Part shown: one piece after another, positions 1,991 through 17,297 of the stretch
Position numbering within the stretch: the stretch's first letter is position 1
Layout: each line of letters begins with the position of its first letter
The notes under the pieces: model-generated
The model's input: only the letters and a program-made list of their open reading frames with translations
What the model was told of the DNA's origin: nothing
The model's database searches: none
Translations under genes and position numbers: made by a program
Assembly: GCA_947450545.1 (NCBI GenBank)
Contig: CANFVU010000010.1
Location: 1 to 43,523, forward strand
From: Actinomycetota bacterium
Lineage (GTDB): Bacteria; Actinomycetota; Actinomycetes; Nanopelagicales; Nanopelagicaceae
Length of the DNA stretch: 43,523 nt
Direction: 5' to 3'

Positions 1991-2851
1991 TTATATTTGA
2001 AGCGCTTTCATCAACTCATTGGTTAGATCTACGGGATTTACGTCCACGCCCGACCACTCTTGAATGGCAATTACAGCTTGATTGACGACCATACCGATAC
2101 CTTGGATTGTGGTCGCACCCCGTGCAGCCGCTTTCAAAAGAAATGCTGTATTTAGCGGATTTATTATTACATCAGCAACAATCAAGCCCGGGCCAATACT
2201 ACTGTAATCAATATCTTGGTCAACCGGCTCTCCAATCATTCCCAGTGAAGTTGAATTGATTAATACATCCGCATCACTCGGAATTACGTAAGTTTCATTC
2301 CATGAAATAAACTCTGCTGTTGAATCCGTTTTAGAATTTAGAAGTTCTTTTAATTCTATGCCTCGCTGACTTCCACGGTTAACTATGTAAAACTTAACCG
2401 CCCCTGCTAAAGCTAATTCGACTGCAATGGCGCGTGCTGCACCTCCTGCACCTAAAAGCACAATCGTTTTACCTTTAGGGTCCGCTATTTCGTAAAACGA
2501 CTGTAAAAAACCTTTGCCGTCTGTATTCTCACCAATTAATTTCCCGTTTCGGTTCACAACACAATTCACAGCACCTATAACTTTTGCAGATTCTCCAAGT
2601 TGATCAAGATATTTTATAACTGAAACTTTGTGTGGAATTGAACAGTGAAACCCTTTCCAATTCATAGCCTTGGCACCAGCAACAGCATCCTGCAATTGAT
2701 CAGGATTTACTTCACAGTTTATATAGCGATAATGCATTTTGTTTACACGATAAGAAGCCTCAACCATGGCAACAGTGGGATTCGAGTTCGAACCTTGCGA
2801 GAAACATCCCGTCAGCTCATGGCGAAAATTCCCACCAATATCGAGCGTCAT
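1991..2851 (-). CDS. AroE/YdiB-like quinate/shikimate dehydrogenase family protein
   Basis: This is an NAD(P)-dependent oxidoreductase of the shikimate dehydrogenase family, 286 residues from the ATG at 2851. That start lies 4 bases after the TAG of the upstream ManA-like gene; the longer frame would overlap that gene by 53 bases. Family landmarks are the catalytic lysine in SIPHK, Asn in AVNCVV, Asp in NTDGKG, the Rossmann loop GAGGAARA, the NR motif for the cofactor, and Gln in MVVNQA. The N-terminal substrate loop, normally HSxSP, here reads GSNSNP, so the S-x-S is kept but the context differs. It is the last gene of the tetritol operon. It may be a real shikimate dehydrogenase using pathway-derived erythrose-4-P further downstream, or a paralogue acting on another polyol acid; the sequence does not decide. 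Confidence 0.75.
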   Translation of the reverse strand: MTLDIGGNFRHELTGCFSQGSNSNPTVAMVEASYRVNKMHYRYINCEVNPDQLQDAVAGAKAMNWKGFHCSIPHKVSVIKYLDQLGESAKVIGAVNCVVNRNGKLIGENTDGKGFLQSFYEIADPKGKTIVLLGAGGAARAIAVELALAGAVKFYIVNRGSQRGIELKELLNSKTDSTAEFISWNETYVIPSDADVLINSTSLGMIGEPVDQDIDYSSIGPGLIVADVIINPLNTAFLLKAAARGATTIQGIGMVVNQAVIAIQEWSGVDVNPVDLTNELMKALQI

Positions 2852-2855
2852 CGTT

Positions 2856-3881
2856 CTATTGAGCGAGTCGTGCGTAGTGTGGGAGCGGTGGACGGGTAAG
2901 AATTCCACCGACTCCAGTTAAAGTCCACCCGCCAGCTGAATGCGGAATCACTACTGCTTCACCTCTGGAGATTTCCATTTCACCTGCATTTTCAAAATTT
3001 GCTCTTCCCTGACCGCTGAGCGCTAGAAATATAGCAAAACCAGCTTCAACTGAACTTACTTTACCCGAGAGGTAATTTGCACGAAAATATGGATTAGCTG
3101 ATTCAGAGAAAATATTGACATCAGTCGCAGCGTTTAACCTGTCATGCGTGATCCATTTTTCAATTTCATTCTTGTTAAGGGGTGAGTAGCGCAAATCATC
3201 AAGAAGTATGTCGAAACCTAGATCGTAATGTCCGTCTTTTTCACCATCGACCGCAAAACCTTCCCATTCAAGTAAGCCTGAATAGTCGGTTGGTTCTTGC
3301 ATTTCCATCACGAAAATTCCCGCACCAATGGCGTGAGGAATTCCAGAGGGAACAAAGAAAGCATCTCCTGGCTTGACCTCAAAAAACTCAAGTGAATCAA
3401 TAATTGCTTGAGATTGCTTCCCCGCAACCAGAGGTAGGACTTCTGTTTTACTCATCTCTTTTTTAAAACCAAGGCCGACTTTTGCTCCAGCAGGTGCATC
3501 AACAATGATCCAAGCCTCGGTCTTTCCGTGACTAACGCCAAGATGTTCTTTTGCAAATTTTCTGGTGGGGTGAAAATGCACGGGTAGCGCCTGGTCGGGA
3601 TCAAGCAGCTTCACTAAGATTTCAGTACTCGATCCAAAAGTATTGAGGTGTTCTCGACCGAGCCACGCTTCAGATTCTCGACCGATGACATCGACAAGTA
3701 ACTCTCCGCTCGAAAGTTTTGAGAGTCCAGTATCTGTCTCGCCATAACGAGTTGTTGTGGAGCCAATCCATTCCTCCGGGCGCATAGGTCCGCCCGGCCC
3801 CCCGCGAAGTGAACCAATTTTGTAACCACCCTTATAAAAATGGTCGAATTGATTTGGCGGTAACTTTTCTGGTTTTGCCAC
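2856..3881 (-). CDS. Class I mannose-6-phosphate isomerase-like cupin
   Basis: A 341-residue protein of the Bacillus ManA-type class I phosphomannose isomerase family. The zinc-site motifs are visible: HFHP near residue 103, KTEAW near 120, and the PSGIPHAIGAGI segment whose His completes the site. The C-terminal cupin (about residues 255-341) is present. It starts 9 bases after the stop of the erythritol/L-threitol-type dehydrogenase, and its stop is 4 bases before the AroE-like start, so it is co-transcribed with the tetritol enzymes. Family members interconvert aldose and ketose phosphates. In this setting a role on a tetrose or pentose phosphate is possible, but ordinary mannose-6-P/fructose-6-P isomerisation cannot be ruled out. 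Confidence 0.75.
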   Translation of the reverse strand: MAKPEKLPPNQFDHFYKGGYKIGSLRGGPGGPMRPEEWIGSTTTRYGETDTGLSKLSSGELLVDVIGRESEAWLGREHLNTFGSSTEILVKLLDPDQALPVHFHPTRKFAKEHLGVSHGKTEAWIIVDAPAGAKVGLGFKKEMSKTEVLPLVAGKQSQAIIDSLEFFEVKPGDAFFVPSGIPHAIGAGIFVMEMQEPTDYSGLLEWEGFAVDGEKDGHYDLGFDILLDDLRYSPLNKNEIEKWITHDRLNAATDVNIFSESANPYFRANYLSGKVSSVEAGFAIFLALSGQGRANFENAGEMEISRGEAVVIPHSAGGWTLTGVGGILTRPPLPHYARLAQ

Positions 3882-3890
3882 AATTACTCC

Positions 3891-4964
3891 TTAAGGAACC
3901 AGAGAAACTTTAATTGATTCAGTTCCAGCGTCGACCATGTCAAGTCCCTTTTGGAAATCAGCTAATGGGAATTGATGTGTGCAGATCTCATCAAGAGGCA
4001 AAATTCCCGATTCAATCATCTTGATTGCGGCAGGCCAGCAATGAGGACCAAGGTGCGCACCAAGGACATCCAATTCCTTATCATCAGAGATAATGGACCA
4101 ATCCACGGTTACATCCTCCTTAAATACTGAGTAGCAGACGAAGGTACCGAGTTTCCGAAGAATCTTGAGCCCTTGTGGGACTGCGGCAGGGTGACCTGTG
4201 CCTTCTAGGTAAATGTCCGCGCCATATCCTTCCGTCAAGTCGCGAACAATCTGAACTGCATCTTCCTTGCCGACGTTTATAGTGATGTCAGCACCACACT
4301 TCTTGGCAACTGCAAGTTTACGATCATCAAAATCAAGCACGACGAGAATTCGAGGATTCTTTGCACGTACGCCTGCCACCATTCCAAGTCCGATAGGACC
4401 TGCACCAGCAACAACAACAACGTCATCAAATTTAATATTTGCGCGCTCAACTGCATGAAGTGCACACGAAAGTGGTTCTGCGTATGCAGCATGCCAAGGC
4501 TTTACATCTTTTGAGATTTTATGAACGAGCGCTTCTACAGGGAAGACCATATATGAAGCCATCGCACCCGGAGTTGCTCGCTTGAATCCAAACATGCCGT
4601 GAGGTGCGCACATATGGTAATCACCACGTTGACAGTAGCGACACGTTCCACATGGAACAATCTGTTCGGCGACTACACGATCACCGACTTTGACATTCCA
4701 ACGCTTGGAAGCGGCGGCATCGAGTTCTACGATTTCGCCAACAAATTCATGCCCTGGAACAACTTCAGTCTCTGCCCAAGCCGGACGATTGGCATCTCCC
4801 CAGAACTTTGCAGCTCCGTGATAGCACTTCAAATCGCTTGCGCAAATTCCTACGGCTTCAACTTTTACAAGCGCTTCACCTGGACCTGGCTTTGGAATAT
4901 CAATCTCTTCAAGCTTGTAATTCATTGGTGCGTGGCACACAACAGCTTTCATTTTTCCGGACAT
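3891..4964 (-). CDS. eltD: Zn-dependent erythritol/L-threitol dehydrogenase-like protein
   Basis: A medium-chain dehydrogenase of 357 residues. Visible motifs are the catalytic zinc ligands (GICASD, GHE, AEPLSC), the four-cysteine structural zinc loop CGTCRYCQRGDYHMC, and the NAD Rossmann loop GAGPIG. Stretches such as KCYHGAAKFWGD and WSIISDDKELDVLGAHLGP closely resemble, from memory, the Mycobacterium smegmatis enzyme that oxidises erythritol and L-threitol to L-erythrulose. The ATG at 4964 is chosen because an AAAGGAG site lies 6 bases upstream; the longer frame from 5024 would overlap the TIM-like gene. The neighbours (TIM-like and RpiB-like isomerases and a DhaK-type kinase) supply the remaining steps of that route. 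The exact substrate is inferred. Confidence 0.75.
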   Translation of the reverse strand: MSGKMKAVVCHAPMNYKLEEIDIPKPGPGEALVKVEAVGICASDLKCYHGAAKFWGDANRPAWAETEVVPGHEFVGEIVELDAAASKRWNVKVGDRVVAEQIVPCGTCRYCQRGDYHMCAPHGMFGFKRATPGAMASYMVFPVEALVHKISKDVKPWHAAYAEPLSCALHAVERANIKFDDVVVVAGAGPIGLGMVAGVRAKNPRILVVLDFDDRKLAVAKKCGADITINVGKEDAVQIVRDLTEGYGADIYLEGTGHPAAVPQGLKILRKLGTFVCYSVFKEDVTVDWSIISDDKELDVLGAHLGPHCWPAAIKMIESGILPLDEICTHQFPLADFQKGLDMVDAGTESIKVSLVP

Positions 4965-4990
4965 ACTCGACTCCTTTGCTATAGATATTT

Positions 4991-5779
4991 TTAGGAAACT
5001 GCTGAAATTCTTTGTGCTGACCAAAATTCATCCACAACTACGGCAAGCGCTTGAGGTTCATGGGCCATGCGACCCAAGAACAAGCCGTCTATATTTTGTG
5101 AAACTTCAGAAAATAGGCCAGGACCAGCGCTACCGCCATACATCACCCAATAATTTGTTAAGCCCAAGGCTTTCAACTCGTTATGAATCGCTGCGCACAA
5201 CTGATTTATATGAGCTGGTGAGGCCGGTTTTTCAGCACCAATCGCCCATGACGGTTCATAGGCAATGACCGTCGGTAGATTCTTATATTCAGTTGACAGC
5301 AATAAAGCCGATTGGATTTGACTGATAGTTTCGAGTTCAGAAGATTCCTCATCTACAAAATCTGTTTCTCCAACACAAATAATTGGTGCAATTTGATTCC
5401 GAAAGGCGGCGCTGACTTTTTCTGCAATTTCACTTTCATTTTCTTTGAAATGTGTGCGACGTTCAAAATGACCAATTGCTGCATATTGGCATCCAAGTTG
5501 CTTAAGTACAACTGGACTTACTTCCCCAGTAAGTGCCCCTGCATCCTGATGTGAAAGGTTCTGCGAACCAACTACTAATTTTGTTCCTTCAAAAATTTCT
5601 GCAACGTCTGCGATCAGAGGAAAGCTGGGAAGTGAAAATACAGATATTACCCCAGAGGTCACGGCAGGGTGGCTGGCGAGAAGCGACTTCACTTCACGAG
5701 CCCATGCCACAGTCGCAGCACGGTCCATATACATCTTGAGACTTACGCCGACAACCTTCGCTGGGTGCTTTGATGTCAT
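4991..5779 (-). CDS. lerI: TIM-barrel isomerase, probable L-erythrulose-1-phosphate isomerase
   Basis: A triosephosphate-isomerase homologue of about 262 residues. The catalytic set is conserved: Lys in SLKMYM, His in AIGHFERR, Glu in AYEPSWAIGA, and the phosphate-binding YGGSAGPG and GLFLGRMA segments. It sits between an RpiB-like and an erythritol/threitol dehydrogenase-like gene, away from any gap-pgk cluster. This suggests conversion of L-erythrulose-1-P to D-erythrulose-4-P rather than glycolysis, the role known for LerI/EryH proteins. Two starts are possible: ATG at 5779, 4 bases after the RpiB stop (used here), or ATG at 5800, which overlaps the RpiB gene by 17 bases. Neither has a strong ribosome site, so translation is probably coupled. 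Confidence 0.75.
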   Translation of the reverse strand: MTSKHPAKVVGVSLKMYMDRAATVAWAREVKSLLASHPAVTSGVISVFSLPSFPLIADVAEIFEGTKLVVGSQNLSHQDAGALTGEVSPVVLKQLGCQYAAIGHFERRTHFKENESEIAEKVSAAFRNQIAPIICVGETDFVDEESSELETISQIQSALLLSTEYKNLPTVIAYEPSWAIGAEKPASPAHINQLCAAIHNELKALGLTNYWVMYGGSAGPGLFSEVSQNIDGLFLGRMAHEPQALAVVVDEFWSAQRISAVS

Positions 5780-5783
5780 CGAA

Positions 5784-6248
5784 TCAACAATTCGCTTCAT
5801 ACTGATTAATCAGCTCAACTTTTTCAGCAGATGCTGAAGTTATATCGAATTCGTAAGTAAGCCATTCCTTAGCAAGTCGACGTGCAAGTTCAATACCGAC
5901 AACTCGCTGACCCATACAAAGTACTTGTGCATTATTGCTAAGAACTGCACGTTCGACCGAGAAACCATCATGTGCGGTTACTGCACGAATTCCCTTAACT
6001 TTATTTGCAGCAATAGCGACGCCTAGTCCCGTTCCACAAATTAAGAGTGCGCGATCCGCTGATCCAGAAGCAACTATCTCCGCTGCTGCTGTTGCGATTG
6101 AAGGATATGCCGTGTGACTTTCTGCCTCAACCCCAACATCTACCACGCTTTCAACCAATGGGCTTGCGAGAAGATCTGCCTTCAAAACTTCCTTGTATTG
6201 ATATCCAGCTTCATCGCTACCAATCACTAATTTCAGTTTCTTTGTCAT
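5784..6248 (-). CDS. derI: RpiB/LacAB-family isomerase, probable D-erythrulose-4-phosphate isomerase
   Basis: A 154-residue sugar-phosphate isomerase of the RpiB family. It shows the catalytic cysteine in LLICGTGLG, the anion-binding [10 protein letters not shown] segment, and the [13 protein letters not shown] motif. Ribose-5-phosphate isomerase B and the erythrulose-4-phosphate isomerases DerI/EryI share this fold. The sequence [19 protein letters not shown] resembles the latter in memory. The last step of the tetritol pathway, D-erythrulose-4-P to D-erythrose-4-P, is the likely role because the kinase, TIM-like isomerase and tetritol dehydrogenase flank it. It begins 6 bases after the stop of the kinase gene. 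Confidence 0.75.
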
Positions 6249-6254
6249 AGCCGG

Positions 6255-7979
6255 TTACGCAATCTCTCTAATAAGTGGAATCAAGTCGCGTGTAATCATG
6301 GCGAATGAGATCGCACCTGGGTCTGGGTGCCCAATGCTCTTTTCGGCGTGAGGACGGGCGCGGCCGATTCTTGGAAGAAGTGCCCCTGTTGCATCGGCTG
6401 CAGTAATCGCGGCAGTTGCGGCTGATTCCCATGCCTCTGCAAGGTTTTCTCCGGATCTGACTTGTGATTGCAAAGTCTCAGCAAAAGGAACGAGCGCGTC
6501 AACAAGTGTCTTGTCTCCGATTTGTGCCTTTCCAAAAGACATAACCTCATTCTTTGCACGGACGATGCTCGCAGCCACGGAGGCAGCGCTTGGTTTTGCA
6601 GAATTCCCTAGTTCCTTGCCAATCTCGCGAAGAATAATTCCCCAGATCGCACCGGAGGTTCCTCCGGCGCGATCGGCCCAAGAATCTCCAGCTTTTTCAA
6701 GAGCCGTTCCGACGCCAGCGCTACGTGAAACTACTTGCTTAATTCCATTTAGTGCGGCATGAGTACCACGCGCCATTCCAATTCCGTGGTCACCATCTCC
6801 AGCATATGAATCGAGTTCACCCAGGTAGGATTCATTTTCAGTGATAGTGGCATCGATGGATGCGACCACACGCTCAATATTCTTCGCACAAGCAATCGAA
6901 TGGGCTGATGCGACTGGGATAGCCGCTTCCACAATTTCATTGCCCCCACTGGAGTTATCAGCTCCGGTTATTTGGACTGATCCCTTCTTATATGCAGGCG
7001 TATACGCCGGTGCTGCCCAAAGTTTTTCTAATTCCTCGTCAAGCCACGTAAATGTCAACGAGAGTCCCGCCATCTCAAAGCTTGTAACAAGCTCTCCAAC
7101 TTCTGGTTCAACAATAGTGATGCCTTTTTCCTTCAAGATACGAGCTACTGAGCGATAGACCACGAAGAGTTCTTCGTATTTCACGCCACCAAGCCCGTTA
7201 AGCAGTACGACGATTCGCGCTGCATCATTAGTACAACCCGCTGGAGTCTCTTCAAGCAAGCGCGCCACGAGATCTTCAGCAAGATCGTTGGCAGTTGGAA
7301 TCTTTGTTTCGGAGAGTCCTGGTTCGCCGTGAATACCAAGACCTAAAGCCATGATTCCTTCTGGAACCGTAAACAGAGGATGTTCTGCACCTGGCAAAGT
7401 GCAGCCAGAGAACGCAACGCCGATTGTGCGGGTGCGATCATTAGCGAGATTTGCGACGCGAACTACATCATCAAGTGAGTAGCCCGCTTCCGATGCTGCT
7501 CCCGCTATTTTAAACACGGTTAAATCTCCAGCGATTCCACGACGCTTATGAATCTCCGCTTTCGACGCGCTCATTATGTCGTCTGTAACCACAACGGTCT
7601 GGCATGGGATACCTTCTGAATTAAGTTTCTCTTGTGCCTGATTAAAGTTCATTACATCACCGGCATAATTTCCGTACGACATAAAAACGCCAGACTTTCC
7701 AGCAGCTGATTTACAAACATTATAAATTTGTTGTGCGGATGGTGATGCAAATACATTTCCCATGGCCGACCCGTGAGCTAGTCCGGGTCCGACTACTCCA
7801 GAGAAAGCTGGGTAGTGCCCTGATCCGCCTCCAACTATGATTGCTACACGATCGGCAGGGGTCGCCTGTGCACGCACAACTCCTCCGTACACCGAACGTA
7901 CAAGATGCGAATTTGCAGCGACAAAACCTTCTGTCATTTCATCTACGAATTCAGATGCATCATTAATCAGATAAGCCAA
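6255..7979 (-). CDS. lerK: Fused DhaK-DhaL ATP-dependent kinase, probable L-erythrulose kinase
   Basis: A 574-residue single-chain kinase. The DhaK domain covers about residues 1-330, with glycine-rich GGGSGHYP and the GIHGEPG loop (His217) that binds the ketose covalently in the family. A linker follows, then a DhaL domain (about 365-574) with the Mg-ATP aspartate cluster DSYAGDGDHG. This ATP-dependent fusion differs from the PTS-linked three-subunit form. In a tetritol locus the expected reaction is L-erythrulose to L-erythrulose-1-P, as in LerK; dihydroxyacetone remains an alternative substrate. The upstream 192-base gap to the binding-protein gene contains a strong hairpin, so its expression may be lower than that of the binding protein. 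Confidence 0.8.
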   Translation of the reverse strand: MAYLINDASEFVDEMTEGFVAANSHLVRSVYGGVVRAQATPADRVAIIVGGGSGHYPAFSGVVGPGLAHGSAMGNVFASPSAQQIYNVCKSAAGKSGVFMSYGNYAGDVMNFNQAQEKLNSEGIPCQTVVVTDDIMSASKAEIHKRRGIAGDLTVFKIAGAASEAGYSLDDVVRVANLANDRTRTIGVAFSGCTLPGAEHPLFTVPEGIMALGLGIHGEPGLSETKIPTANDLAEDLVARLLEETPAGCTNDAARIVVLLNGLGGVKYEELFVVYRSVARILKEKGITIVEPEVGELVTSFEMAGLSLTFTWLDEELEKLWAAPAYTPAYKKGSVQITGADNSSGGNEIVEAAIPVASAHSIACAKNIERVVASIDATITENESYLGELDSYAGDGDHGIGMARGTHAALNGIKQVVSRSAGVGTALEKAGDSWADRAGGTSGAIWGIILREIGKELGNSAKPSAASVAASIVRAKNEVMSFGKAQIGDKTLVDALVPFAETLQSQVRSGENLAEAWESAATAAITAADATGALLPRIGRARPHAEKSIGHPDPGAISFAMITRDLIPLIREIA

Positions 7980-8077
7980 TTTCCTTCACCATTTCTAGAT
8001 AAAAATGCTTTGATTGCTACTTTGTCATAATTTTTAAAATATAAATCTTTAAAATCTAAGTAATTATTCAGTTTGAG

Positions 8078-8127
8078 TGAGAGCACCGGTGCCTTCACCG
8101 GGAGTCGGGAACTCTGCGGTGCTCTCA
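8078..8127 (-). promoter_or_regulatory. Intercistronic hairpin with a competing inner hairpin
   Basis: In the gap between the binding-protein stop and the kinase start, arms 8078-8088 and 8117-8127 are perfect 11-base complements (TGAGAGCACCG). A second stem, CCGGTG-CCTT-CACCGG at 8086-8101, reuses three bases of the large stem. On the minus transcript no T-run follows, so a simple intrinsic terminator is unlikely. A 3' stabiliser of the binding-protein mRNA, or an attenuator, fits better. Confidence 0.6.
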
Positions 8128-8171
8128 AACAAACCTCTGACAATTACTTGCTAATAAGTACTTTTTTTAAC

Positions 8172-9140
8172 TTAAGCCTTAAGAGCCCAAGATGTGTACT
8201 TAGCAGCGTTTGCCTTTGTGATAAGTGTGCAGTCAACAGTTTGCTTCTCTGATGAAGCGCCCGTCTTCTTTGTTTTGATGTAGTTGTTTGCTTGATCTAC
8301 AGCCATCTTTGATAGAACTGTGATTGGTTGTAGAACTGTATAAGCAAGTGTTCCTGCCTTTACAGCGGCAACAGCATCAGGTGATCCATCGAACCCACCC
8401 ACGAGAACGCCAGTCTTACCAGCAGCCTTAAGTGCAGCAATTGCACCAAGAGCCATTTCGTCGTTTCCGTTGATGATTCCCTTTACATCAGGGTGTGCTT
8501 GAAGCATTGTTTGAGCCTTAGCGAAGCCCTGCTGACGATCCCAGTTAGCAACTTCCTTTTGGAGGTTAGCCATTCCTGGGTATTGTGACATTACAGACTT
8601 GTAACCTGAAGAACGAACTTCAGCATTGTTATCTGTTGGGTTGCCGTAAAGCTCTAGGTAATCGCCCTTTTGACCCATGATACGTGCGAACTCAGCGCCA
8701 CCGATAGCAGCACCTTGTGCGTTGTTAGAAACGATCTGAGCCTTAGCAATGCCTGTCTTATTGATTTCAGCGTTAACTAGGAATACTGGAATACCAGCTT
8801 TTGTAGCCTTTGTGATTGGTCCAACTGATGCATCTGCACCAGCATTATCCAAGATGATTGCAACAGATTTGTTGGCAATAGCAGCGTCGATAAGTTGGCT
8901 CTGCTTATTTACATCTTGCTCGTGAGCAGCTGACTTTGTGGTGTAGCCCAAAGCCTTAGCTTCTGCTTCAGCAGCTTTCACTTCAGCCTGCCAGAAAGGG
9001 TTCTTTAATGTAACAGTGATGATTGAGATCAATCCACCCTTTTTAGCTGCAGCGTGTCCCGCTGTTGCACCAACTGTTGTCATACCGACAACTGCAAGAA
9101 GTGCTCCTGCAATACCGGCAATTTTGATGTTCTTCTTCAT
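8172..9140 (-). CDS. RbsB-like periplasmic sugar/polyol-binding protein
   Basis: A 322-residue substrate-binding protein of the Peripla_BP_4 type. Residues 1-31 form a signal peptide (KKNIKIAGIAGALLAVVG... ending near AGHAA), without a lipobox cysteine. The mature part follows the ribose/galactose-binding pattern (VTLKNPFWQAEVKAAE, ILDNAGADAS, GINGNDEMALGAIAAL, GGFDGSPDAV). It is the recognition component for the adjacent RbsC-like permease and RbsA-like ATPase. The operon context predicts erythritol, threitol or erythrulose as ligand. An AAAGG ribosome site lies 6 bases before the ATG. Hairpins flank the gene on both sides, which suggests separate control of its mRNA. Confidence 0.85.
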   Translation of the reverse strand: MKKNIKIAGIAGALLAVVGMTTVGATAGHAAAKKGGLISIITVTLKNPFWQAEVKAAEAEAKALGYTTKSAAHEQDVNKQSQLIDAAIANKSVAIILDNAGADASVGPITKATKAGIPVFLVNAEINKTGIAKAQIVSNNAQGAAIGGAEFARIMGQKGDYLELYGNPTDNNAEVRSSGYKSVMSQYPGMANLQKEVANWDRQQGFAKAQTMLQAHPDVKGIINGNDEMALGAIAALKAAGKTGVLVGGFDGSPDAVAAVKAGTLAYTVLQPITVLSKMAVDQANNYIKTKKTGASSEKQTVDCTLITKANAAKYTSWALKA

Positions 9141-9162
9141 GTACTGCCTTTCTTTTGCTCCT

Positions 9163-9184
9163 AATGTCAGAGGTTTCTGACATT
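9163..9184 (-). promoter_or_regulatory. Short perfect hairpin before the binding-protein gene
   Basis: AATGTCAGA and TCTGACATT form a 9-base perfect stem with a 4-base loop. It lies in the 79-base gap between the permease stop and the binding-protein start, 22 bases before the ATG. It could be an RNA processing or stabilising element, or a protein-binding palindrome. No T-run follows on the minus strand. Confidence 0.5.
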
Positions 9185-9219
9185 CATTCCGGTACTCCGT
9201 GAAGGCACCAGAAACTTGT

Positions 9220-10287
9220 TTATTTTTCAGCTGCTACTTTTGCTAGTTTCTGTTTTTTCTTTGATCCTTGTTGTGCCTCATCGAGTGCAACAGCAAGAAT
9301 GATTACAGCACCTTGGATAACCATCTGCCAGAAAGATGAAACGCCGACAATAACCAGACCATCCCCTAGAAAACCGATAACGAATGCGCCAAGAAGTGTT
9401 CCACGAATATGACCACGACCACCTGAAAGGGCTGCACCACCAATCACTACAGCCGCAATTGCATTCAATTCATAGGACTGACCCGTTTGTGGAGCACCAG
9501 CTGTAAGTTCTGATGCAATGATTAAACCTGTAGCTGCGGCGCAAATTCCTGAAAGTGTGTAAACCCAAATTTTTACTCGCTTGATTGGTACGCCAGATAG
9601 TTCTGCTGCTCGTTCGTTGCCACCCAGGGCATACAACCAACGACCAAATACTGTCTTGGTTAACAAGAGGGCGGTGACGAGAGCTACGACGATCATTACC
9701 CATACACCAGTTGGAAGTCCAAGAAATTTTCCAAGTCCAAGTACGTGAAAACCAGTATTTCCAAGTTCTGGCTTGCCTGTCATGTCATTGAACGTTTCGC
9801 CTTTTGCAATCAAAAGTGCAGTACCGCGAACAACATAAAGAGTTCCAAGAGTTGTAATAAATGGTGCCACTTTAAAGCGAGTAATGAGAACCCCATTTAA
9901 GAGCCCCACCAGCGCACCAGCACCTAAACACAGAACAACAATCACCCAAACAGACGGATACAGAACGGTTTGTGTACCTGGAATTTGAATTCCTTGCATC
10001 AACATAAATCCTGCAAGCACGCCGCTAAGGCCAACTGTTGAACCAACAGACAAATCAATACCGGCTGTCAAAATTACTAACAACATTCCAATAGCAAGAA
10101 GTGCATTAAGTCCCACGTGGCGAGTCATAACGATGACGTTGCTCAAGTTCAGATAGTTAGGAGACAAAGAAGCAAACACAACAATAATTACGGCAAGCGC
10201 AATAAATGCTCGTCCTTCTGTTAACAACTTTCCGAAGGTGAATCCATCGAAGATGTTCTTCGTTGACTTACTGACTTGATTGCTCAT
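9220..10287 (-). CDS. RbsC-like ABC transporter permease
   Basis: A 355-residue integral membrane protein of the BPD_transp_2 family with about eight to ten hydrophobic helices. Signature segments are AGIDLSVGSTVGLSG, the EAA-like ELNAIAAVVIGGAALSGGRG, and SSFWQMVIQGAVIILAV. It forms the channel of the importer with the RbsA-like ATPase, probably as a homodimer. The ATG overlaps the ATPase stop by four bases (ATGA), so translation is coupled. Substrate class (tetritol or related polyol) is inferred from the operon. Confidence 0.88.
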   Translation of the reverse strand: MSNQVSKSTKNIFDGFTFGKLLTEGRAFIALAVIIVVFASLSPNYLNLSNVIVMTRHVGLNALLAIGMLLVILTAGIDLSVGSTVGLSGVLAGFMLMQGIQIPGTQTVLYPSVWVIVVLCLGAGALVGLLNGVLITRFKVAPFITTLGTLYVVRGTALLIAKGETFNDMTGKPELGNTGFHVLGLGKFLGLPTGVWVMIVVALVTALLLTKTVFGRWLYALGGNERAAELSGVPIKRVKIWVYTLSGICAAATGLIIASELTAGAPQTGQSYELNAIAAVVIGGAALSGGRGHIRGTLLGAFVIGFLGDGLVIVGVSSFWQMVIQGAVIILAVALDEAQQGSKKKQKLAKVAAEK

Positions 10288-11825
10288 GCACCTGCTCCAA
10301 TGCGTAGTTTGCTTGTCTTGTCATCTGCCGCCGCCATGACATCAGATTGGGATACTTTCTTTGGATCCATTTCAGCTGTTACGTGTCCCTTTGATAGGAC
10401 GATAATGCGATTAGCCGAAGCCATTGCTTCACTGATTTCAGAGGTTGCGAAAAGAACAGCAAGTCCAGATTTTGCTTGTTCCGAAAGTAATTGGAAAATT
10501 TCAGCTTTCGCACCTACATCAATTCCTCGCGTTGGCTCATCAAGAATTATTGCTTTTGGATTTGTTAAGAGAACTTTGCCGATAACAACTTTTTGTTGAT
10601 TGCCACCACTCAACGATGTAATCAAAGATTTATGGCTAGAGGTCTTTACGCGAACATCTTTAATCTTCTGTTCGATACTTGCGACCTCAGGTGAAGTACG
10701 CATGATGAATTTCTTTACGAAATCACCCACACTTGAAAGTGCAATATTGTGACCAACAGTCATGAGTTGCACTAAGCCATCGCGTTGACGATCTTCGGGT
10801 ACGAGTGCAACACCAGCTTTAATACGGCTGTTAATAGAAAGTGTTGCGATATCAACGCCATTGAGAAGAATCTGACCCGAAATTTGGCTCAAACGTCCGG
10901 CAATAGTTTCAAGAAGTTCCGTGCGTCCCGCGCCCATTTGCCCGTATAGGCAAACGACTTCACCAGCATGAACTTTCAGGTTGAAGTTATCAACCGCCAA
11001 ACGTGCTGGGTTGGCTGGGTCTGCAATAGTGAGATTCTTGAGCTCAAGAACTACTTGATCTGTCTTCTGATCAATTGCAGTAGATCCAGCGCCATCCCGG
11101 CCAATCATCATACGTACGATTCCTGGAAGGTCAACGTTCTTAGCTTCATCGGTCGCAATCATGTTGGAATCGCGCAAGACATAGATGTAATCGGCAACAT
11201 GGAGAGCTTCTTCTAGGTGGTGAGAAATGTAGACAATTGAAACTCCGTGAGCCTTGAGATCTTCGATAACGGTAAAGAGAATTTCAATTTCAACATTTGA
11301 GAGGGCTGAAGTTGGTTCATCCATAATCAAGATACGGGCATCAGAAGCCAAAGCGCGAGCAATTTCAACGATTTGCTGTTGACCGAGTCTCAGATCCCCA
11401 ACAATTTCATCAGGGCCAATGTCATGTTGTAGCCGCTTCATAATTTCGCGGACTTTTTCATTCTCTGCCGCATAATTCACGCGCGAACCGAGAGAGCGAA
11501 TTTCACTTCCAAGAAACATATTGTCTCGAACAGTTAGATTCGGAGCGAGGCTAAGTTCTTGGTGAATAATTGAAATTCCGTTTGCTCGAGCCTCTGTTGA
11601 GCTATCGAATGAAATATCTTTTCCATCTAACTCCAGTGATCCAGAAGTTGGCCTTTCAATGCCAGCAAGAATCTTCATCAAAGTTGACTTGCCGGCGCCA
11701 TTTTCACCAAAAAGGGTAGTTACTTTTCCGCGCACTAAGTCAAAATCGACGTCATTGAGTGCGACCGTTAAACCGTACTCCTTACGGACCTTTTTAGCGC
11801 GAAGAACGAGATCTGATTTGGACAT
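10284..11825 (-). CDS. RbsA-like ABC transporter ATPase with two nucleotide-binding domains
   Basis: A 513-residue ATPase with two tandem ABC domains, the usual length for RbsA/XylG/MglA. The first half has Walker A GENGAGKST, signature-like LRLGQQQIVEIARAL and Walker B ILIMDEPTSAL. The second half has the degenerate Walker A GQMGAGRTE, signature LSGGNQQKVVIGK and Walker B IILDEPTRGID. This asymmetry is normal in the family. Its ATG shares one base with the stop of the DUF2291 gene (TAATG) and its stop overlaps the permease start, so the transporter block is tightly coupled. Confidence 0.9.
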   Translation of the reverse strand: MSKSDLVLRAKKVRKEYGLTVALNDVDFDLVRGKVTTLFGENGAGKSTLMKILAGIERPTSGSLELDGKDISFDSSTEARANGISIIHQELSLAPNLTVRDNMFLGSEIRSLGSRVNYAAENEKVREIMKRLQHDIGPDEIVGDLRLGQQQIVEIARALASDARILIMDEPTSALSNVEIEILFTVIEDLKAHGVSIVYISHHLEEALHVADYIYVLRDSNMIATDEAKNVDLPGIVRMMIGRDGAGSTAIDQKTDQVVLELKNLTIADPANPARLAVDNFNLKVHAGEVVCLYGQMGAGRTELLETIAGRLSQISGQILLNGVDIATLSINSRIKAGVALVPEDRQRDGLVQLMTVGHNIALSSVGDFVKKFIMRTSPEVASIEQKIKDVRVKTSSHKSLITSLSGGNQQKVVIGKVLLTNPKAIILDEPTRGIDVGAKAEIFQLLSEQAKSGLAVLFATSEISEAMASANRIIVLSKGHVTAEMDPKKVSQSDVMAAADDKTSKLRIGAGA

Positions 11826-12490
11826 TACTTACCTACTGTTATTTCAGTTGGAATCACAATGTAATTTGTCGGATTAGTAACCGACATAGCTCCGTACAAA
11901 GTAATTGTCTTTCCAACAAGATCACCGTGCTTAAATGGCTTCAATACCGTCTCGCGAACCTTGTCGTTTAGCTTCGTTGCCGCATCTTGATATGCGAGTT
12001 GATTTACAAAATCTTCAAACTTGACTGTTCCGGTCACGTCACGAAGAGATGTTCCATTAAGAGCTGGTCCCATCTGCACGTAAATCGTTGCCGCCGATGA
12101 AAGCCCAGCCACCTTCACAGGAAGAAAATCATTCACCATAGCTTGGCCAACGCCAGTGAATTTAACTGGTACGGCATAAGCATTTCCTGGCCCATCCGTG
12201 TGGCCATACTTAGGGCCAACATTTGTAATGTCAGCTTGAATTCCCTTGTCAACTTCAAGGATGTCCACAGCGTGGGCCTTAATGTAAGGAACTACCTCAG
12301 GCCACTTCTTGTCAGCAAATGAAACAGAAAGTTTTGGGTTGGCTTGCAGAGAAGTTGTTCCTGTACGGAAAGTTAAGTTGGCATCCGACAAGCTAACAAC
12401 CTTTGTTGAAAGAGCCATTGCTACAACTAAAGCTACTGTGATTCCGATAAGAACAATACGTAGTTTGGTAAATTTAACTCTCGGCGACAT
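11825..12490 (-). CDS. DUF2291 membrane-anchored protein linked to sugar ABC importer
   Basis: A 221-residue protein with one N-terminal hydrophobic segment (about residues 10-32) followed by an extracytoplasmic domain containing the segments AHAVDILEVDKGIQADITN and KYGHTDGPGNAYAVPVKFTG. It is recognised as the DUF2291 family, whose genes commonly sit next to RbsABC-type importers for sugars and polyols, including erythritol loci. No biochemical function is established. There is no clear lipobox cysteine, so it is probably anchored by an uncleaved helix. It could assist the binding protein or the importer at the cell surface; this is inference from constant gene proximity. Confidence 0.7.
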   Translation of the reverse strand: MSPRVKFTKLRIVLIGITVALVVAMALSTKVVSLSDANLTFRTGTTSLQANPKLSVSFADKKWPEVVPYIKAHAVDILEVDKGIQADITNVGPKYGHTDGPGNAYAVPVKFTGVGQAMVNDFLPVKVAGLSSAATIYVQMGPALNGTSLRDVTGTVKFEDFVNQLAYQDAATKLNDKVRETVLKPFKHGDLVGKTITLYGAMSVTNPTNYIVIPTEITVGK

Positions 12491-12519
12491 TTGAATGAAA
12501 GCTCCTTTGATTGCCTTAT

Positions 12520-13545
12520 TTAGAGGGAAATTAATGTTCCTGATTGCAAAGCACTTGGTCTGATTTGCAGCTTACGGCCTGTTCCCTTGCGGAACATATC
12601 CATTGCTTCAGCGTAATCATCGAGCGAGTAGAAGTGAGAAATCATTGGTTCCGGATTAATTGCTCCAGCTTCAAAAAGATCAACGGCGCGACCAAAGCAT
12701 GAAACAGTTGCCATCGTTCCGACAATATTTACTTCGTCGCGATAAATGCGAAAAGGTGAATATTTTGCACGAGCGTCAACTGGGGCAACTCCAAAGTGTT
12801 GGAATGTTCCACCAGGCTTCACACGTGGGAGTCCATCTTCAATAGCGGCTACAACACCCGTGCAATCGATTACAACTTCAAAAAGATTTCGGTTCGACTC
12901 ATTTGCATTTGTGAATGTGTGTTCGACACCTACTTCACGAGCGGCTTGCAAACGCTTTTCGTTAGTATCAACAATTGAAATAGAAACAGCACCAGCACGA
13001 CGGGCAAGTTGTGCCATCAACAATCCCATCGTTCCTGCGCCGTAAATTAAATAATGTGATCCCATTTCACGAGGAAGAACGTCGAATCCACGAACGGCAC
13101 ATGCAAGTGGCTCAATCAATGCTGCGTGATTTAAATTTGTTCCGGGTTGAAGTTTGTGACAGTTTCGTGCAGGTGCCCGGAGAAATTCTGCAGATGCACC
13201 GTCGTTCGCGACAACACCCATTCCTTGCCAATTGCGACAAAGGTTGCTCCGACCGGTCAGGCAGAATTCGCATTCTTCACATGTGAGAGTTGGGTTAACG
13301 GTTACGAGATCTCCGACCTTGAGATTTTTAACAGCTGAACCAACTGCAACAATCTCGCCGGAGATTTCGTGACCTGGAATGATTGGAAATACGCCCCCCT
13401 CAAACTCTCCGTCATAAACATGGATATCTGTACCGCACATTCCGACCGCAGCCACCTTGAGAACTACATCCTTCTCGCCAGGGGTTGGATCGGGCAGGTT
13501 TGTAACAGTCAGTTTGCCCTTGCCTTCGAATACGACAGCTCTCAC
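12520..13545 (-). CDS. Zn-dependent polyol dehydrogenase (sorbitol/arabinitol dehydrogenase-like)
   Basis: A medium-chain dehydrogenase of about 341 residues. It has catalytic zinc motifs (GMCGTDIH, GHE, IEPLAC), the structural cysteine loop CEECEFCLTGRSNLC, and Rossmann loop GAGTMG. It is the first gene of the catabolic operon, 29 bases before DUF2291. Family members oxidise sorbitol, arabinitol, threitol or xylitol at a secondary hydroxyl. A GGAGG site directly abuts an ATG at 13554, leaving no spacing; the GTG three codons later lies 9 bases from it and gives the typical 'MRAVVFEGKG' start, so 13545 is preferred. The substrate may be a second tetritol such as D-threitol, or a pentitol. Confidence 0.75.
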   Translation of the reverse strand: MRAVVFEGKGKLTVTNLPDPTPGEKDVVLKVAAVGMCGTDIHVYDGEFEGGVFPIIPGHEISGEIVAVGSAVKNLKVGDLVTVNPTLTCEECEFCLTGRSNLCRNWQGMGVVANDGASAEFLRAPARNCHKLQPGTNLNHAALIEPLACAVRGFDVLPREMGSHYLIYGAGTMGLLMAQLARRAGAVSISIVDTNEKRLQAAREVGVEHTFTNANESNRNLFEVVIDCTGVVAAIEDGLPRVKPGGTFQHFGVAPVDARAKYSPFRIYRDEVNIVGTMATVSCFGRAVDLFEAGAINPEPMISHFYSLDDYAEAMDMFRKGTGRKLQIRPSALQSGTLISL

Positions 13546-13560
13546 GTTTTTCATCCTCCA

Positions 13561-13590
13561 ATTAACATTTTATGTTAATACTTTTGTTAA
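13561..13590 (-). promoter_or_regulatory. Probable DeoR operator in the leader of the catabolic operon
   Basis: ATTAACAT-TTT-ATGTTAAT (13561-13579) is a perfect 8-base inverted repeat with a 3-base centre. A further half-site, TTTGTTAA, follows at 13583-13590. It lies between the putative promoter and the first dehydrogenase gene and shares TAACA/TGTTA arms with a repeat before deoR. Confidence 0.55.
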
Positions 13591-13625
13591 TTTCACACAT
13601 TTTTTGTCGGAAATCACATAACTGA

Positions 13626-13654
13626 AGTTAAATCGGTGGGAATGTGGGTGTCAA
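13626..13654 (-). promoter_or_regulatory. Putative promoter of the tetritol operon
   Basis: On the minus strand a consensus -35 TTGACA (plus 13649-13654) is followed after 17 bases by a weak -10 TTAACT (13626-13631). Transcription would start about 70 bases before the dehydrogenase and pass through the inverted repeats at 13561-13590. Confidence 0.35.
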
Positions 13655-13727
13655 TAGCGGTTGCACTCAAATACGCAATATTTTTATAACAGTTTTGTAA
13701 CAGTAAGAATGTTAAACTAACAAAAAG

Positions 13728-14522
13728 TTATGCGGGAATCACTTCGAACTTAACGCCCGCGCGAGTGAGTTCCTCAAGAGAGGCCGTGGATGCACCTTCG
13801 CCTATAAAGACGAGATCAAAGTCAGTCAGTGGGGCCAGTTTATGGAAGGCGACCTTGTCCAGTTTGGTGTGGTCCAGAAGAAGATATTTTGAATTGGCTG
13901 CCTTCATCATTGCTTGCTTGAAGGCCACTATACGACTTTGGCGTTGGTAGGCGGAGCCGCCCGATACCGCCGATGCGGAGAAGAAGCCAGCATCCACACG
14001 AATTGATTCAATTGCCTGCTCTGTGAGAACGCCAGTGAATGTGTCGCTCGTGGGATCAAAGTCCCCGCCGAACGTGACAAGGCGAATATCTGGAATTGAC
14101 GATAGTTGGTTGATGGCCTTGAGAAAGTTGGTTGCAACGTAAATCGGAGTTACATCAGCAAGGAGAGGTACCATCTGCAAGACAGTTGTGGAGTTATCCA
14201 AAACAATGGTCATACCAGGTTCGACGTATTTGATTGCAGCTTCAGCAAGCGTGCGTTTCTCGCCAGGATTGGCGTCCATGCGGAAGCCCACGTTTGATTC
14301 AAAGACAACAGATGGTTGGGCAGAAACACCACCGCGGAATTTTCGGACAACGCCTTGACGTTCGAGATCTTCAAGATCGCGGTGTACGGTCATGATAGAC
14401 ACGTTGAGCTCATTAGCAAGTTCTTGAGCCGAAAGTGATCCGCGTTCGGTAACAAGTTGAGCTAATGCACGCTGACGAATCGCGCGCTTATTCGTTGCTA
14501 CGCTGAGAGACTCAATCGTCAC
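13728..14522 (-). CDS. DeoR-family transcriptional regulator
   Basis: A 264-residue regulator. The N-terminal helix-turn-helix (about residues 10-60) contains LSAQELANELNVSIMTVHRDLEDLERQGVVRKFRGGV, split here as the typical DeoR recognition region. The C-terminal DeoRC sensor domain shows LDNSTTVLQM and the TFTG/SASAVSGG segments that bind phosphorylated intermediates. The start is GTG at 14522, with AAGGGGG nine bases upstream; a longer frame from TTG 14558 has no such site. It lies between the rbsD-like gene and the catabolic operon, all on the minus strand. It probably represses the operon and itself through the TAACA...TGTTA repeats; the inducer could be an erythrulose phosphate. Confidence 0.82.
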   Translation of the reverse strand: MTIESLSVATNKRAIRQRALAQLVTERGSLSAQELANELNVSIMTVHRDLEDLERQGVVRKFRGGVSAQPSVVFESNVGFRMDANPGEKRTLAEAAIKYVEPGMTIVLDNSTTVLQMVPLLADVTPIYVATNFLKAINQLSSIPDIRLVTFGGDFDPTSDTFTGVLTEQAIESIRVDAGFFSASAVSGGSAYQRQSRIVAFKQAMMKAANSKYLLLDHTKLDKVAFHKLAPLTDFDLVFIGEGASTASLEELTRAGVKFEVIPA

Positions 14523-14594
14523 GCGGTCTAGCCCCCTTCGTCTTGTAATCCTAGGCAAACTTAATCACAAGAAATGTTAAAAAGAAAGTCAAAC

Positions 14595-14611
14595 TAACAA
14601 TCTCTTTGTTA
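14595..14611 (-). promoter_or_regulatory. Inverted repeat before deoR, probable operator
   Basis: TAACAA-TCTCT-TTGTTA forms a 6-base inverted repeat. It shares the TAACA/TGTTA half-sites of the repeat in front of the catabolic operon, which suggests autoregulation by the DeoR protein. Confidence 0.45.
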
Positions 14612-14629
14612 ATTCTAAAAGTATGGCTA

Positions 14630-15019
14630 TCAACCTGATTTTAAAATGACACTGCTGTAGGGAACTGCATCTCCCGTGTGAATGATGGCGAGAGCTTGGC
14701 CCACTTTTACTTTAAATTCTGAATGTGGAATGTATTCGATAGGGATCCCTTGATAATGAGATTTGTACTCTGTCACTGTCTTAGGATCGACTTTCTCATC
14801 AAATTCATTTGCGAGATATAAACCGGTCAACTCCATGAGGGGAAGAATTGCATCCAAGATCTCAGGAATCGTTGGTTGCCCTTTGATAACTGCTAAATCA
14901 ACGATTTCTACTCCTGGATAGCTAGGAAATGGTCCATCGACAATCGCAAGAGTATTCACGTGACGGAATCGTGCGAGAACGGAAGCTAATTGTCCGTTGA
15001 TAACACCTTCGCGAAGCAT
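14630..15019 (-). CDS. RbsD/FucU-family sugar mutarotase-like protein
   Basis: A 129-residue protein of the RbsD/FucU family, which interconverts anomers or ring forms of ribose and fucose. Family features are the early segment NGQLASVLARFRHVNTLAIVDG (shown in part), PSYPGVEIVDLA, and the C-terminal VKVGQALAIIHTGDAVPYSSVIL. The ATG at 15019 has an AAAGGA site 7 bases upstream; a GTG-started extension of six codons has none. It is the first gene of the minus-strand group, ahead of deoR. Its role in a tetritol locus is unclear because four-carbon ketoses cannot form pyranose rings. A furanose anomer or a different substrate is possible. Confidence 0.78.
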   Translation of the reverse strand: MLREGVINGQLASVLARFRHVNTLAIVDGPFPSYPGVEIVDLAVIKGQPTIPEILDAILPLMELTGLYLANEFDEKVDPKTVTEYKSHYQGIPIEYIPHSEFKVKVGQALAIIHTGDAVPYSSVILKSG

Positions 15020-15106
15020 TGTGGTTCCTTTCCACACAAATGAGAATCTCTACTGATACGAGGGTATCTCTTATTGGTCTGACATAAAAGAGTCTCAACT
15101 TCTTTA

Positions 15107-15118: not shown

Positions 15119-16375
15119 ATGGAAAAAAGCCCCAACTCACTCGAAGTTGGAACCACTCACCTTCCGGTCTTTCAGGCCATCAAAGAGAACTCACGTGATC
15201 TCAAGAAATCTGCATCATGGAGCGCACTTCTCGCTGGATTCTTGGCAGTACTTATTTCAGTTACCGGGCCTGTTGCAATTTTGTTTCAAGCTGCGCAAGC
15301 AGGACACCTTTCAGAAGGACAAACCAATTCTTGGTTATGGACGATCTTTCTCGGCTCCGGAATTTTTGGATTAGTTCTCACTCTTCGTTATCGCATGCCA
15401 ATCATTGGAGCATGGGGATCGGCCACAACGGCGTTACTTGTTGACAGTCTCACGTCGCATCCTTTCCCAGAGGTCGTTGGTGCATATTTCATTGCATCAA
15501 TTGCAGTAACAGCACTAGGAATGAGTGGGCTCTTTAGCAAATTTATTCACCTTGTACCCCGTCCAGTTGTAATGGCAATGTTAGGTGGAGTTCTCTTTAA
15601 TTTTGGAGTCACTGCTTTCTCTTCCGTTCGTAGCGGACCATGGATTGCACTTCCAATGATTGTGATCTTCTTTGCAGGACGTGCATTTAAATTTAAGGCC
15701 ACAATAGTTTTTGCTCTTCTCTCCGGTTTGCTCGTCGCAGCACTTCAAAAGAAGTTAGTGAATCCACATATTCATGCCGATCTTGTGCATCCAATGTGGA
15801 CCAACCCAACATTCACCGTTGCTTCCGCAATTAACTTAGCTCTTCCAATCTTTCTTTTGGTGATGACTACCCAATTTGCCACAGGTTCCGCTGTACTTTT
15901 TAATATGAATTACGAAGCACCGATAAATGCAATTGTGACAACGGGCGGATTTCTTTCACTCTTGTCCGCTGGATTCGGTGGTAGCGGAGTTAACTGCGCC
16001 GCGATGACTGCAGCAATTGGTTGTGGTCCAGATGCAGATCCCAATCCAAAGACTCGATATTTCGCAGGTTTTGTTTCAGGGCTTATCTATCTAGCGCTCG
16101 GTTTATATGCAGGAGTAGAAAGCGGCTTTCTATCATCACTTCCCGCTGTTTTAGTTGCAGTACTAGCTGGATTGGCACTTATTCCTACTATTTCTTCAGC
16201 TATTCACGAAGCTTTGGTCGATGCTGAATATCGAGATGCAGGAATTGTTGCACTCTCCATTTCAGTTTCTGGAATAAAATTCTTCAGTATTGCTGCCCCA
16301 TTCTGGGCTTTGGTTGGTGGAATTCTTGTTCATCAATTTACTGTGTGGGGAAATAAAAAAGGAGACGAGAAGTGA
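15119..16375 (+). CDS. BenE-family (benzoate/H+ symporter-like) transporter
   Basis: A 418-residue integral membrane protein with roughly 11-12 hydrophobic helices. It fits the BenE family of the nucleobase/benzoate transporter superfamily. Landmarks are GFLAVLISVTGPVAILFQAA near residue 40, PIIGAWGSATTALL near 95, and FGGSGVNCAAMTAAIGCGPDADPN near 285, a conserved BenE loop. No benzoate-degradation gene is in the window. It overlaps the class II aldolase gene by 4 bases, and both are transcribed away from the tetritol operon. This suggests uptake of a carbohydrate-derived acid or similar compound; the substrate is unknown. Confidence 0.8.
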   Translation: MEKSPNSLEVGTTHLPVFQAIKENSRDLKKSASWSALLAGFLAVLISVTGPVAILFQAAQAGHLSEGQTNSWLWTIFLGSGIFGLVLTLRYRMPIIGAWGSATTALLVDSLTSHPFPEVVGAYFIASIAVTALGMSGLFSKFIHLVPRPVVMAMLGGVLFNFGVTAFSSVRSGPWIALPMIVIFFAGRAFKFKATIVFALLSGLLVAALQKKLVNPHIHADLVHPMWTNPTFTVASAINLALPIFLLVMTTQFATGSAVLFNMNYEAPINAIVTTGGFLSLLSAGFGGSGVNCAAMTAAIGCGPDADPNPKTRYFAGFVSGLIYLALGLYAGVESGFLSSLPAVLVAVLAGLALIPTISSAIHEALVDAEYRDAGIVALSISVSGIKFFSIAAPFWALVGGILVHQFTVWGNKKGDEK

Positions 16376-17208: not shown

Positions 17209-17297
17209 AGTAGTCAGAGTTCAGCCGGTTCTATTGCGCCTCACACCTAGCTTCTCTACCCTTTCACTCTGTTGTGGATTCTCTCTGAGGGGCTGAA

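Follow-up and report, generated by a model that had tools for sequence, protein, structure and literature searches.

The window analysed here is contig C10 (CANFVU010000010.1), a stretch of 43,523 nucleotides from a genome of 1,314,809 bases that is 88% complete and belongs to a likely acI-like actinobacterium of the Nanopelagicaceae. Thirteen consecutive open reading frames (ORFs), all on the minus strand, occupy positions 1991 to 15037, and we propose that they encode an importer of the EryEFG type together with EltD-LerK-LerI-DerI enzymes for the catabolism of four-carbon sugar alcohols (tetritols), a reading to which we would assign a probability of about 0.74. In order of transcription, from 15037 down to 1991, the block holds the following genes.

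14630..15037, minus strand: RbsD/FucU-type mutarotase (NF008761 89.2 bits, cut-off 93; alignment with Escherichia coli RbsD).
13728..14558, minus strand: DeoR-family regulator (Pfam DeoRC 135 bits, HTH_DeoR 50 bits), with orthologues in operons of genomes G097 (88%) and G265 (75%).
12520..13554, minus strand: MDR1, a zinc polyol-type dehydrogenase by Pfam and NCBIfam, in a clade of LerK-operon dehydrogenases.
11825..12490, minus strand: DUF2291 protein, whose gene heads the importer set (PF10054 126.4 bits), placed as in rhizobial ery loci.
10284..11825, minus strand: CUT2 ATP-binding protein, EryE/RbsA-like, 58-89% identical to rbsA of orthologous operons.
9220..10287, minus strand: CUT2 permease, EryF/RbsC-like, 64-95% identical to rbsC of orthologous operons.
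8172..9140, minus strand: EryG-like binding protein (Peripla_BP_4 174 bits; tree; ligand residues; AlphaFold model).
6255..7979, minus strand: fused DhaK-DhaL kinase, LerK-like, a putative L-erythrulose 1-kinase (Dak1 378 bits, Dak2 166 bits; NF011049 744 bits, cut-off 492).
5784..6248, minus strand: RpiB-fold isomerase, DerI-like, a candidate for D-erythrulose-4-phosphate to D-erythrose-4-phosphate (PF02502 152 bits; Ser-Asn-Asn/Asp site).
4991..5800, minus strand: TIM-fold isomerase, LerI-like, a candidate for L-erythrulose-1-phosphate to D-erythrulose-4-phosphate (PF00121 181 bits; LerK-cluster motifs).
3891..5024, minus strand: MDR2, EltD-like, a putative erythritol/L-threitol dehydrogenase in a clade with an annotated EltD.
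2856..3881, minus strand: ManA-like cupin isomerase, accessory (Cupin_2 26.6 bits, under the 27.2 cut-off; TIGR00218 53.7 bits, under 116.2; mannose-6-phosphate isomerase 1qwr, E 4.7e-14).
1991..2908, minus strand: an extra AroE-like dehydrogenase, accessory (PF08501 63 bits; TIGR00507 199.4 bits, cut-off 200.2).

An earlier, sequence-only reading of this DNA had described a minus-strand block with an RbsABC-type importer, a DUF2291 protein, a DhaK-DhaL kinase, RpiB-like and TIM-like isomerases and an EltD-like dehydrogenase, and the 13 ORFs bear this out; Pfam and NCBIfam assign 11 of them to families, and RbsA and RbsC were assigned by similarity to the operons of relatives rather than by hmmscan. 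It had placed the block at 1991-15019, of which the start stands, whereas the end stops 18 bp before that of the longest RbsD ORF, an immaterial difference. No intergenic gap exceeds 192 bp, and neighbouring genes overlap at 5 of the 12 junctions, those of TIM with MDR2 and of the ManA-like with the AroE-like gene hinging on the choice of start codon; the true start of MDR2 probably lies about 20 codons inside its ORF. The GC fraction is 0.43-0.49 across the window in 2 kb steps, with no break in composition at the edges of the block, and scans of promoters and terminators gave sites not above those in shuffled sequence (10 versus 18.1 and 10 versus 12.8, respectively).

We envisage an inducible operon for tetritol uptake and catabolism, and from the genes we infer its substrates, the order of its reactions and its regulation. 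The EryG-like protein would bind erythritol or a close acyclic polyol, the EryE- and EryF-like proteins would carry out import, and the DUF2291 protein would be accessory to them. MDR2 would then oxidise the tetritol to L-erythrulose, with MDR1 perhaps serving another stereoisomer; LerK would phosphorylate the L-erythrulose, and successive isomerisations by the LerI-like and DerI-like proteins would lead to D-erythrose-4-phosphate, the DeoR protein probably being in control of the operon. According to the available portion of PMC10733421, EltD, LerK, LerI and DerI jointly allow an E. coli ΔtktAB strain to use L-threitol or erythritol instead of supplements that supply erythrose-4-phosphate.

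The dehydrogenases give this route its entry point. In a tree of 51 rows, from which candidates were excluded if they had fewer than 280 residues or contained internal stops, MDR2 lies inside a clade of 28 rows (99/99), one of which is a Providencia protein carrying the annotation erythritol/L-threitol dehydrogenase; this annotated protein, not the Mycobacterium smegmatis EltD sequence, is the EltD reference among the rows. This outcome favours the earlier reading, as do the sequence comparisons set out below for the kinase and isomerases, which resemble those of LerK loci. MDR1 falls in a separate 14-row clade (100/99) made up of LerK-operon dehydrogenases. Both trees of the analysis carry long-branch warnings. 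The operons can hold MDR1, MDR2 or both, which suggests that the two enzymes have related jobs. Relatives of MDR2 (57-75% identity, E at most 1e-80) occur in 71/396 genomes of one probable Mycobacterium genus, and in all seven 19.9 kb stretches inspected around them there are LerK-like (50-52%) and RpiB-like (68-71%) genes.

The kinase carries its Dak1 and Dak2 domains in one protein and is separated from rpiB by 6 bp. Among the best 80 loci of its relatives (55-64% identity, from a scan of genome contigs), tblastn found an RpiB-like gene in 72, a TIM-like gene in 72 and both in 65. The genome has second copies of TIM (on C15) and RpiB (on C2), each 33% identical to its counterpart in the window and lacking that counterpart's motifs. 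The motifs SLKMY and LFLGR.AH of the window TIM are common to the TIM-like proteins of LerK loci, and both the TIM copies of rhizobial ery loci and the genome's other TIM differ at them. The RpiB site reads Ser-Asn-Asn/Asp in 98 of 99 compared rows, a set selected from LerK, ery and apiose loci; the exception, His-Asn-Asn, is the genome's other RpiB. Candidate RpiB, TIM and binding proteins with an internal stop were excluded from the alignments and from the tree described next. By these sequence comparisons the kinase and the TIM-like and RpiB-like proteins match their LerK-locus counterparts and differ from the second copies.

The importer follows another model. The earlier reading had taken the M. 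smegmatis route as its pattern, which does not hold for this part of the block: the binding protein is 27% identical to MSMEG_3599 of M. smegmatis, whose structure (4rsm, E 6e-24) is much farther from it than the closest solved structures, 5ibq and 4ry0 of Rhizobium etli (E 9e-91), and an AlphaFold model (pLDDT 84.7, seven sequences) has its best fold match in 4ry0, at 54% identity. In a tree computed after exclusion of row L090, the protein lies within a 30-row EryG-like clade (94/99) that includes proteins of rhizobial ery loci, and two proteins from apiose loci stand outside this clade as a pair of their own (100/99); the fork uniting clade and pair is weak (80/40), and E. coli, as the outgroup, sits on a very long branch. 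The positions of Asp89 and Arg90 of E. coli RbsB, which we take to be ribose contacts, read Asn-Ala in 30 of 30 aligned rows of the EryG-like clade. Asp-Arg is kept in E. coli RbsB, in the two apiose-locus rows and in two Pseudomonas rows, and the Providencia row reads Asp-Ala. EryG-like proteins 60-63% identical to that of the window are found in rhizobial loci along with an FGGY kinase, a glycerol-3-phosphate (G3P)-dehydrogenase-like protein, a TIM-barrel protein, TIM, RpiB and DUF2291. Clade membership and ligand-site residues together support an EryEFG-type importer, for which erythritol binding is predicted. As described in the available part of PMC3599248, EryEFG is the erythritol transporter of R. 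leguminosarum, and a hypothetical gene opens the eryEFG transcript there; that gene is presumably the DUF2291 gene, given the matching position in the rhizobial ery locus. Our literature search turned up no paper on DUF2291.

The order mdr1-DUF2291-rbsA-rbsC-rbsB-lerK-rpiB-tim is repeated in other actinobacteria, so these genes do not stand together by chance. An orthologous operon is present in G097, which is of the same genus as the window, and in G265, and in Salinicola and Halomonas (Halomonadaceae) MDR2-type dehydrogenases accompany the same importer in a rearranged order. Within the family of the window, kinase matches at 1e-60 occur in 27/296 genomes; both DhaK and DhaL are covered in 15 of the 296, two of these with an internal stop, and of the remaining matches one breaks off where its contig stops, while the others cover the DhaK part alone. 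The binding protein is matched at 1e-70 in 5/296, making the importer rare in this acI-like family.

Several observations weigh against this interpretation. The annotated EltD of Providencia is 48% identical to MDR2 and sits on a long branch, and the CUT2 binding protein at its locus is 29% identical to that of the window. A TIM-like match was found in none of the seven mycobacterial 19.9 kb stretches around MDR2 relatives. The RpiB protein scores 198.7 bits on TIGR02133, a model of ribose-5-phosphate isomerase ('RPI_actino', cut-off 168.2), and at 145.3 bits it remains under the cut-off of 240 for the rhizobial DerI model. In the tree of binding proteins, the splits at 94/99 and 88/86 are below the strongest grade. 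Two positions of the ligand site set the acI trio formed by the window, G097 and G265 apart from EryG, with Val for Asn at 9 and Phe for Tyr at 15, and the ligand preference may therefore have shifted. In the related G265 operon a ribokinase lies beside RbsD, hinting at a pentose. Finally, 60-63% identity to EryG misses the 73% cut-off of PMC3599248, a value that the available part of that paper gives as chosen by its authors for their own data set. The route from tetritol to erythrose-4-phosphate put forward in the earlier reading is supported in outline by the EltD clade of MDR2, by the LerK-locus character of the kinase and isomerases and by the EryG grouping, and is left less secure at the RpiB step and in its four-carbon substrate, which we infer.

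Part of this evidence could also be accommodated if another acyclic polyol (a pentitol, D-threitol or a mixture) were the main substrate and the four-carbon route served part of it only. Two dehydrogenases from different clades, the acI-specific Val9 and Phe15 at the ligand site, three extra sugar genes in the block, and the split transketolase, FGGY kinase and RhaI/XylA-like isomerase that flank the orthologous cluster of G097 would all fit such a diet. We nevertheless consider it unlikely, since LerK, LerI-like and DerI-like proteins occurring jointly indicate four-carbon ketose phosphates, as far as the available portion of PMC10733421 goes.

A second alternative, that D-apiose is imported, oxidised and decarboxylated to L-erythrulose and then passed to LerK, LerI and DerI, appears to us very improbable. 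It was the substrate to which the nearest structures pointed first, because the R. etli protein is encoded at a locus with an annotated OiaX; the ligand in 5ibq we take to be apiose. Genes of apionate type are also present at 38 of the best 80 LerK loci, and relatives of them at the R. etli OiaX locus, although the label is a weak one: three of four representatives have no NCBIfam match, and the fourth reaches 207 bits against a D-apionate lactonase cut-off of 750. Such genes accompany 2 of the 17 LerK loci whose binding protein is at least 49% identical to that of the window, compared with 36 of the remaining 63 (Fisher p 0.0009, uncorrected for relatedness), and two further loci, L026 and L074, combine a 46% binding protein that has Asp-Arg with apionate-type genes. 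A search of the window's own genome for a single apionate-type protein, made with a weakly assigned acI query in an 88% complete assembly and with lactonase, decarboxylase and OiaX not sought, returned a 25% match (E 4.9e-6). What leads us to set D-apiose import aside is the binding protein, since those of apiose loci form their separate pair in the tree and keep Asp-Arg at the ligand site. As a separate observation, locus L152 (12130-13792) of a single-contig acI-like genome contains two genes 31-32% identical to apionate-type enzymes.

Import of D-ribose or another pentose by RbsABC and RbsD, with RpiB acting as a ribose-5-phosphate isomerase, would account for an RbsD with its conserved residues and a score just under the NCBIfam cut-off, for the ribokinase-RbsD pair of G265 and for the RpiB score over the TIGR02133 cut-off, but we hold it to be highly unlikely and set it aside on the ligand site, where Asn-Ala replaces the presumed ribose contacts; in addition, none of the 13 ORFs of the block is a ribokinase (other contigs carry six PfkB genes), a second RpiB is available on C2, and there would be no explanation for LerK, the TIM-like protein and the pair of MDRs.

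Tetritol catabolism as proposed here has close counterparts. The EltD-LerK-LerI-DerI pathway reportedly described for M. smegmatis by Huang in 2015, and summarised in PMC10733421, resembles the block in that a single operon combines an EltD-clade dehydrogenase, a fused DhaK-DhaL kinase and isomerases of the TIM-like and RpiB-like kinds; the window differs in its importer, another member of the family, in its second dehydrogenase, MDR1, and in the RbsD, ManA-like and AroE-like extras. With the R. leguminosarum eryEFG/eryABCD system (PMC3599248, available part; loci L083-L086) it shares an EryG-type protein with Asn-Ala, a CUT2 transporter preceded by DUF2291, TIM and RpiB homologues and a DeoR regulator. 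Rhizobia, however, phosphorylate first, by means of an FGGY kinase and the G3P-dehydrogenase-like EryB, whereas the window has dehydrogenases and a DAK kinase, and its TIM-like protein matches the copies of LerK clusters, not the rhizobial ones. A parallel in layout is an Arthrobacter plasmid (NZ_CP084551, L082) with nine genes, mdr1-DUF2291-rbsACB-lerK-rpiB-tim-deoR, in the same order and at 37-75% identity, although it has an additional alcohol dehydrogenase of its own (28-31% to the window MDRs) and no match to RbsD or to the ManA-like and AroE-like genes. The R. etli D-apiose locus with OiaX (L087) is alike in its RbsB-type importer and its DUF2291, TIM, RpiB and DAK genes; its binding protein, which keeps Asp-Arg, is outside the EryG-like clade, and its Gfo/Idh, phosphogluconate-dehydrogenase-like and OiaX genes have no place in the block.

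Known as a set, the enzymes stand here in the less familiar company of an importer of rhizobial type and of three odd additional genes. If the proposal is correct, some streamlined acI-like lake actinobacteria consume four-carbon sugar alcohols; an erythritol-type importer joined to a dehydrogenase-first tetritol pathway would be a shared and widespread operon of actinobacteria and Halomonadaceae, and DUF2291, MDR1 and the AroE-like protein would thereby become testable parts of polyol metabolism. For comparison, four complete acI genomes span 1.35-1.55 Mbp, IMCC25003 being the smallest and IMCC26077 the largest (PMC5301498, in the part available). No link of acI actinobacteria to erythritol was found in a literature search that covered part of the matching papers.

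The RbsD, ManA-like and AroE-like genes are outside the conserved core of the operon. RbsD retains the His, Asp, His and Tyr residues that are conserved in its E. coli counterpart, which we assume to be catalytic, and among the compared loci it is matched in the window, G265 and G126 (L152) alone. In G265 (L118, 13474-14819) the orthologous operon has MDR2 followed by the ribokinase and RbsD. The ManA-like gene is present in 91/296 family genomes, the window's own included, and no match to it was found in the other LerK, ery and apiose comparison loci. In G126 and G097 it adjoins a DeoC-type aldolase, a Gfo/Idh protein and an FGGY kinase, part of a recurring acI locus (L152, 2506-8872, in G126; L155, 530-8404, in G097) with a uridine-kinase-like gene, a Gfo/Idh oxidoreductase, a DeoC/LacD aldolase, the ManA-like cupin and an FGGY kinase. 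Membership of the ManA-like gene in a PfkB locus of its own genome was not borne out, and a fixed pairing with the AroE-like gene was rejected, the latter having no match in any of eight stretches around ManA-like genes of other family genomes.

The most novel piece of the block is the AroE-like gene. It is not the sole AroE of the genome, which has a second copy on C12. Matches at 1e-45 are found in four other genomes of a 396-genome phylum sample, the best at 47%; two metagenome-assembled genomes of Microbacteriaceae (L029 and L070) have a relative on the flank of the same operon, and another relative, in G503, is near CUT2 transporter genes. We take the Ser-x-Ser of AroE to be a substrate motif and its Lys/Asp pair to be functional in shikimate dehydrogenase. 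The AroE-like protein keeps the Lys and Asp, and Ser-x-Ser is replaced by Asn-x-Thr in all four close members (window, L029, L070 and L162), a change that is only suggestive because Thr may still hold the carboxylate. We would speculate, as a doubtful proposal, that this is a non-shikimate dehydrogenase taken over for the breakdown of sugars or polyols, belonging to a rare Asn-x-Thr subfamily found by sugar operons, and that with the ManA-like protein and RbsD it extends the four-carbon pathway to aldotetroses (erythrose or threose, for example), giving streamlined actinobacteria of lakes a combined tetrose and tetritol diet.

Some further features lie in related genomes and beside the block. 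A second variant in the family (L104 and L106, from G177 and G054) has a kinase at 47-48% and a binding protein at 55-58%, with RpiB-like and TIM-like genes. The genes beside the orthologous operon of G097 (L114, 2189-7623), which encode the split transketolase, a SorC/DeoR-type regulator, the glycerol-kinase-like FGGY protein and the RhaI/XylA-like isomerase, possibly form a second linked sugar route. In the window, positions 15119-18290 adjoin the block and carry divergent genes for a BenE-type transporter, a class II aldolase and a LacI regulator. At the other side, a tRNA-Ser (gct) gene at 1818-1909 is separated by 81 bp from the point where the block ends downstream; tRNA genes are common sites of island insertion.

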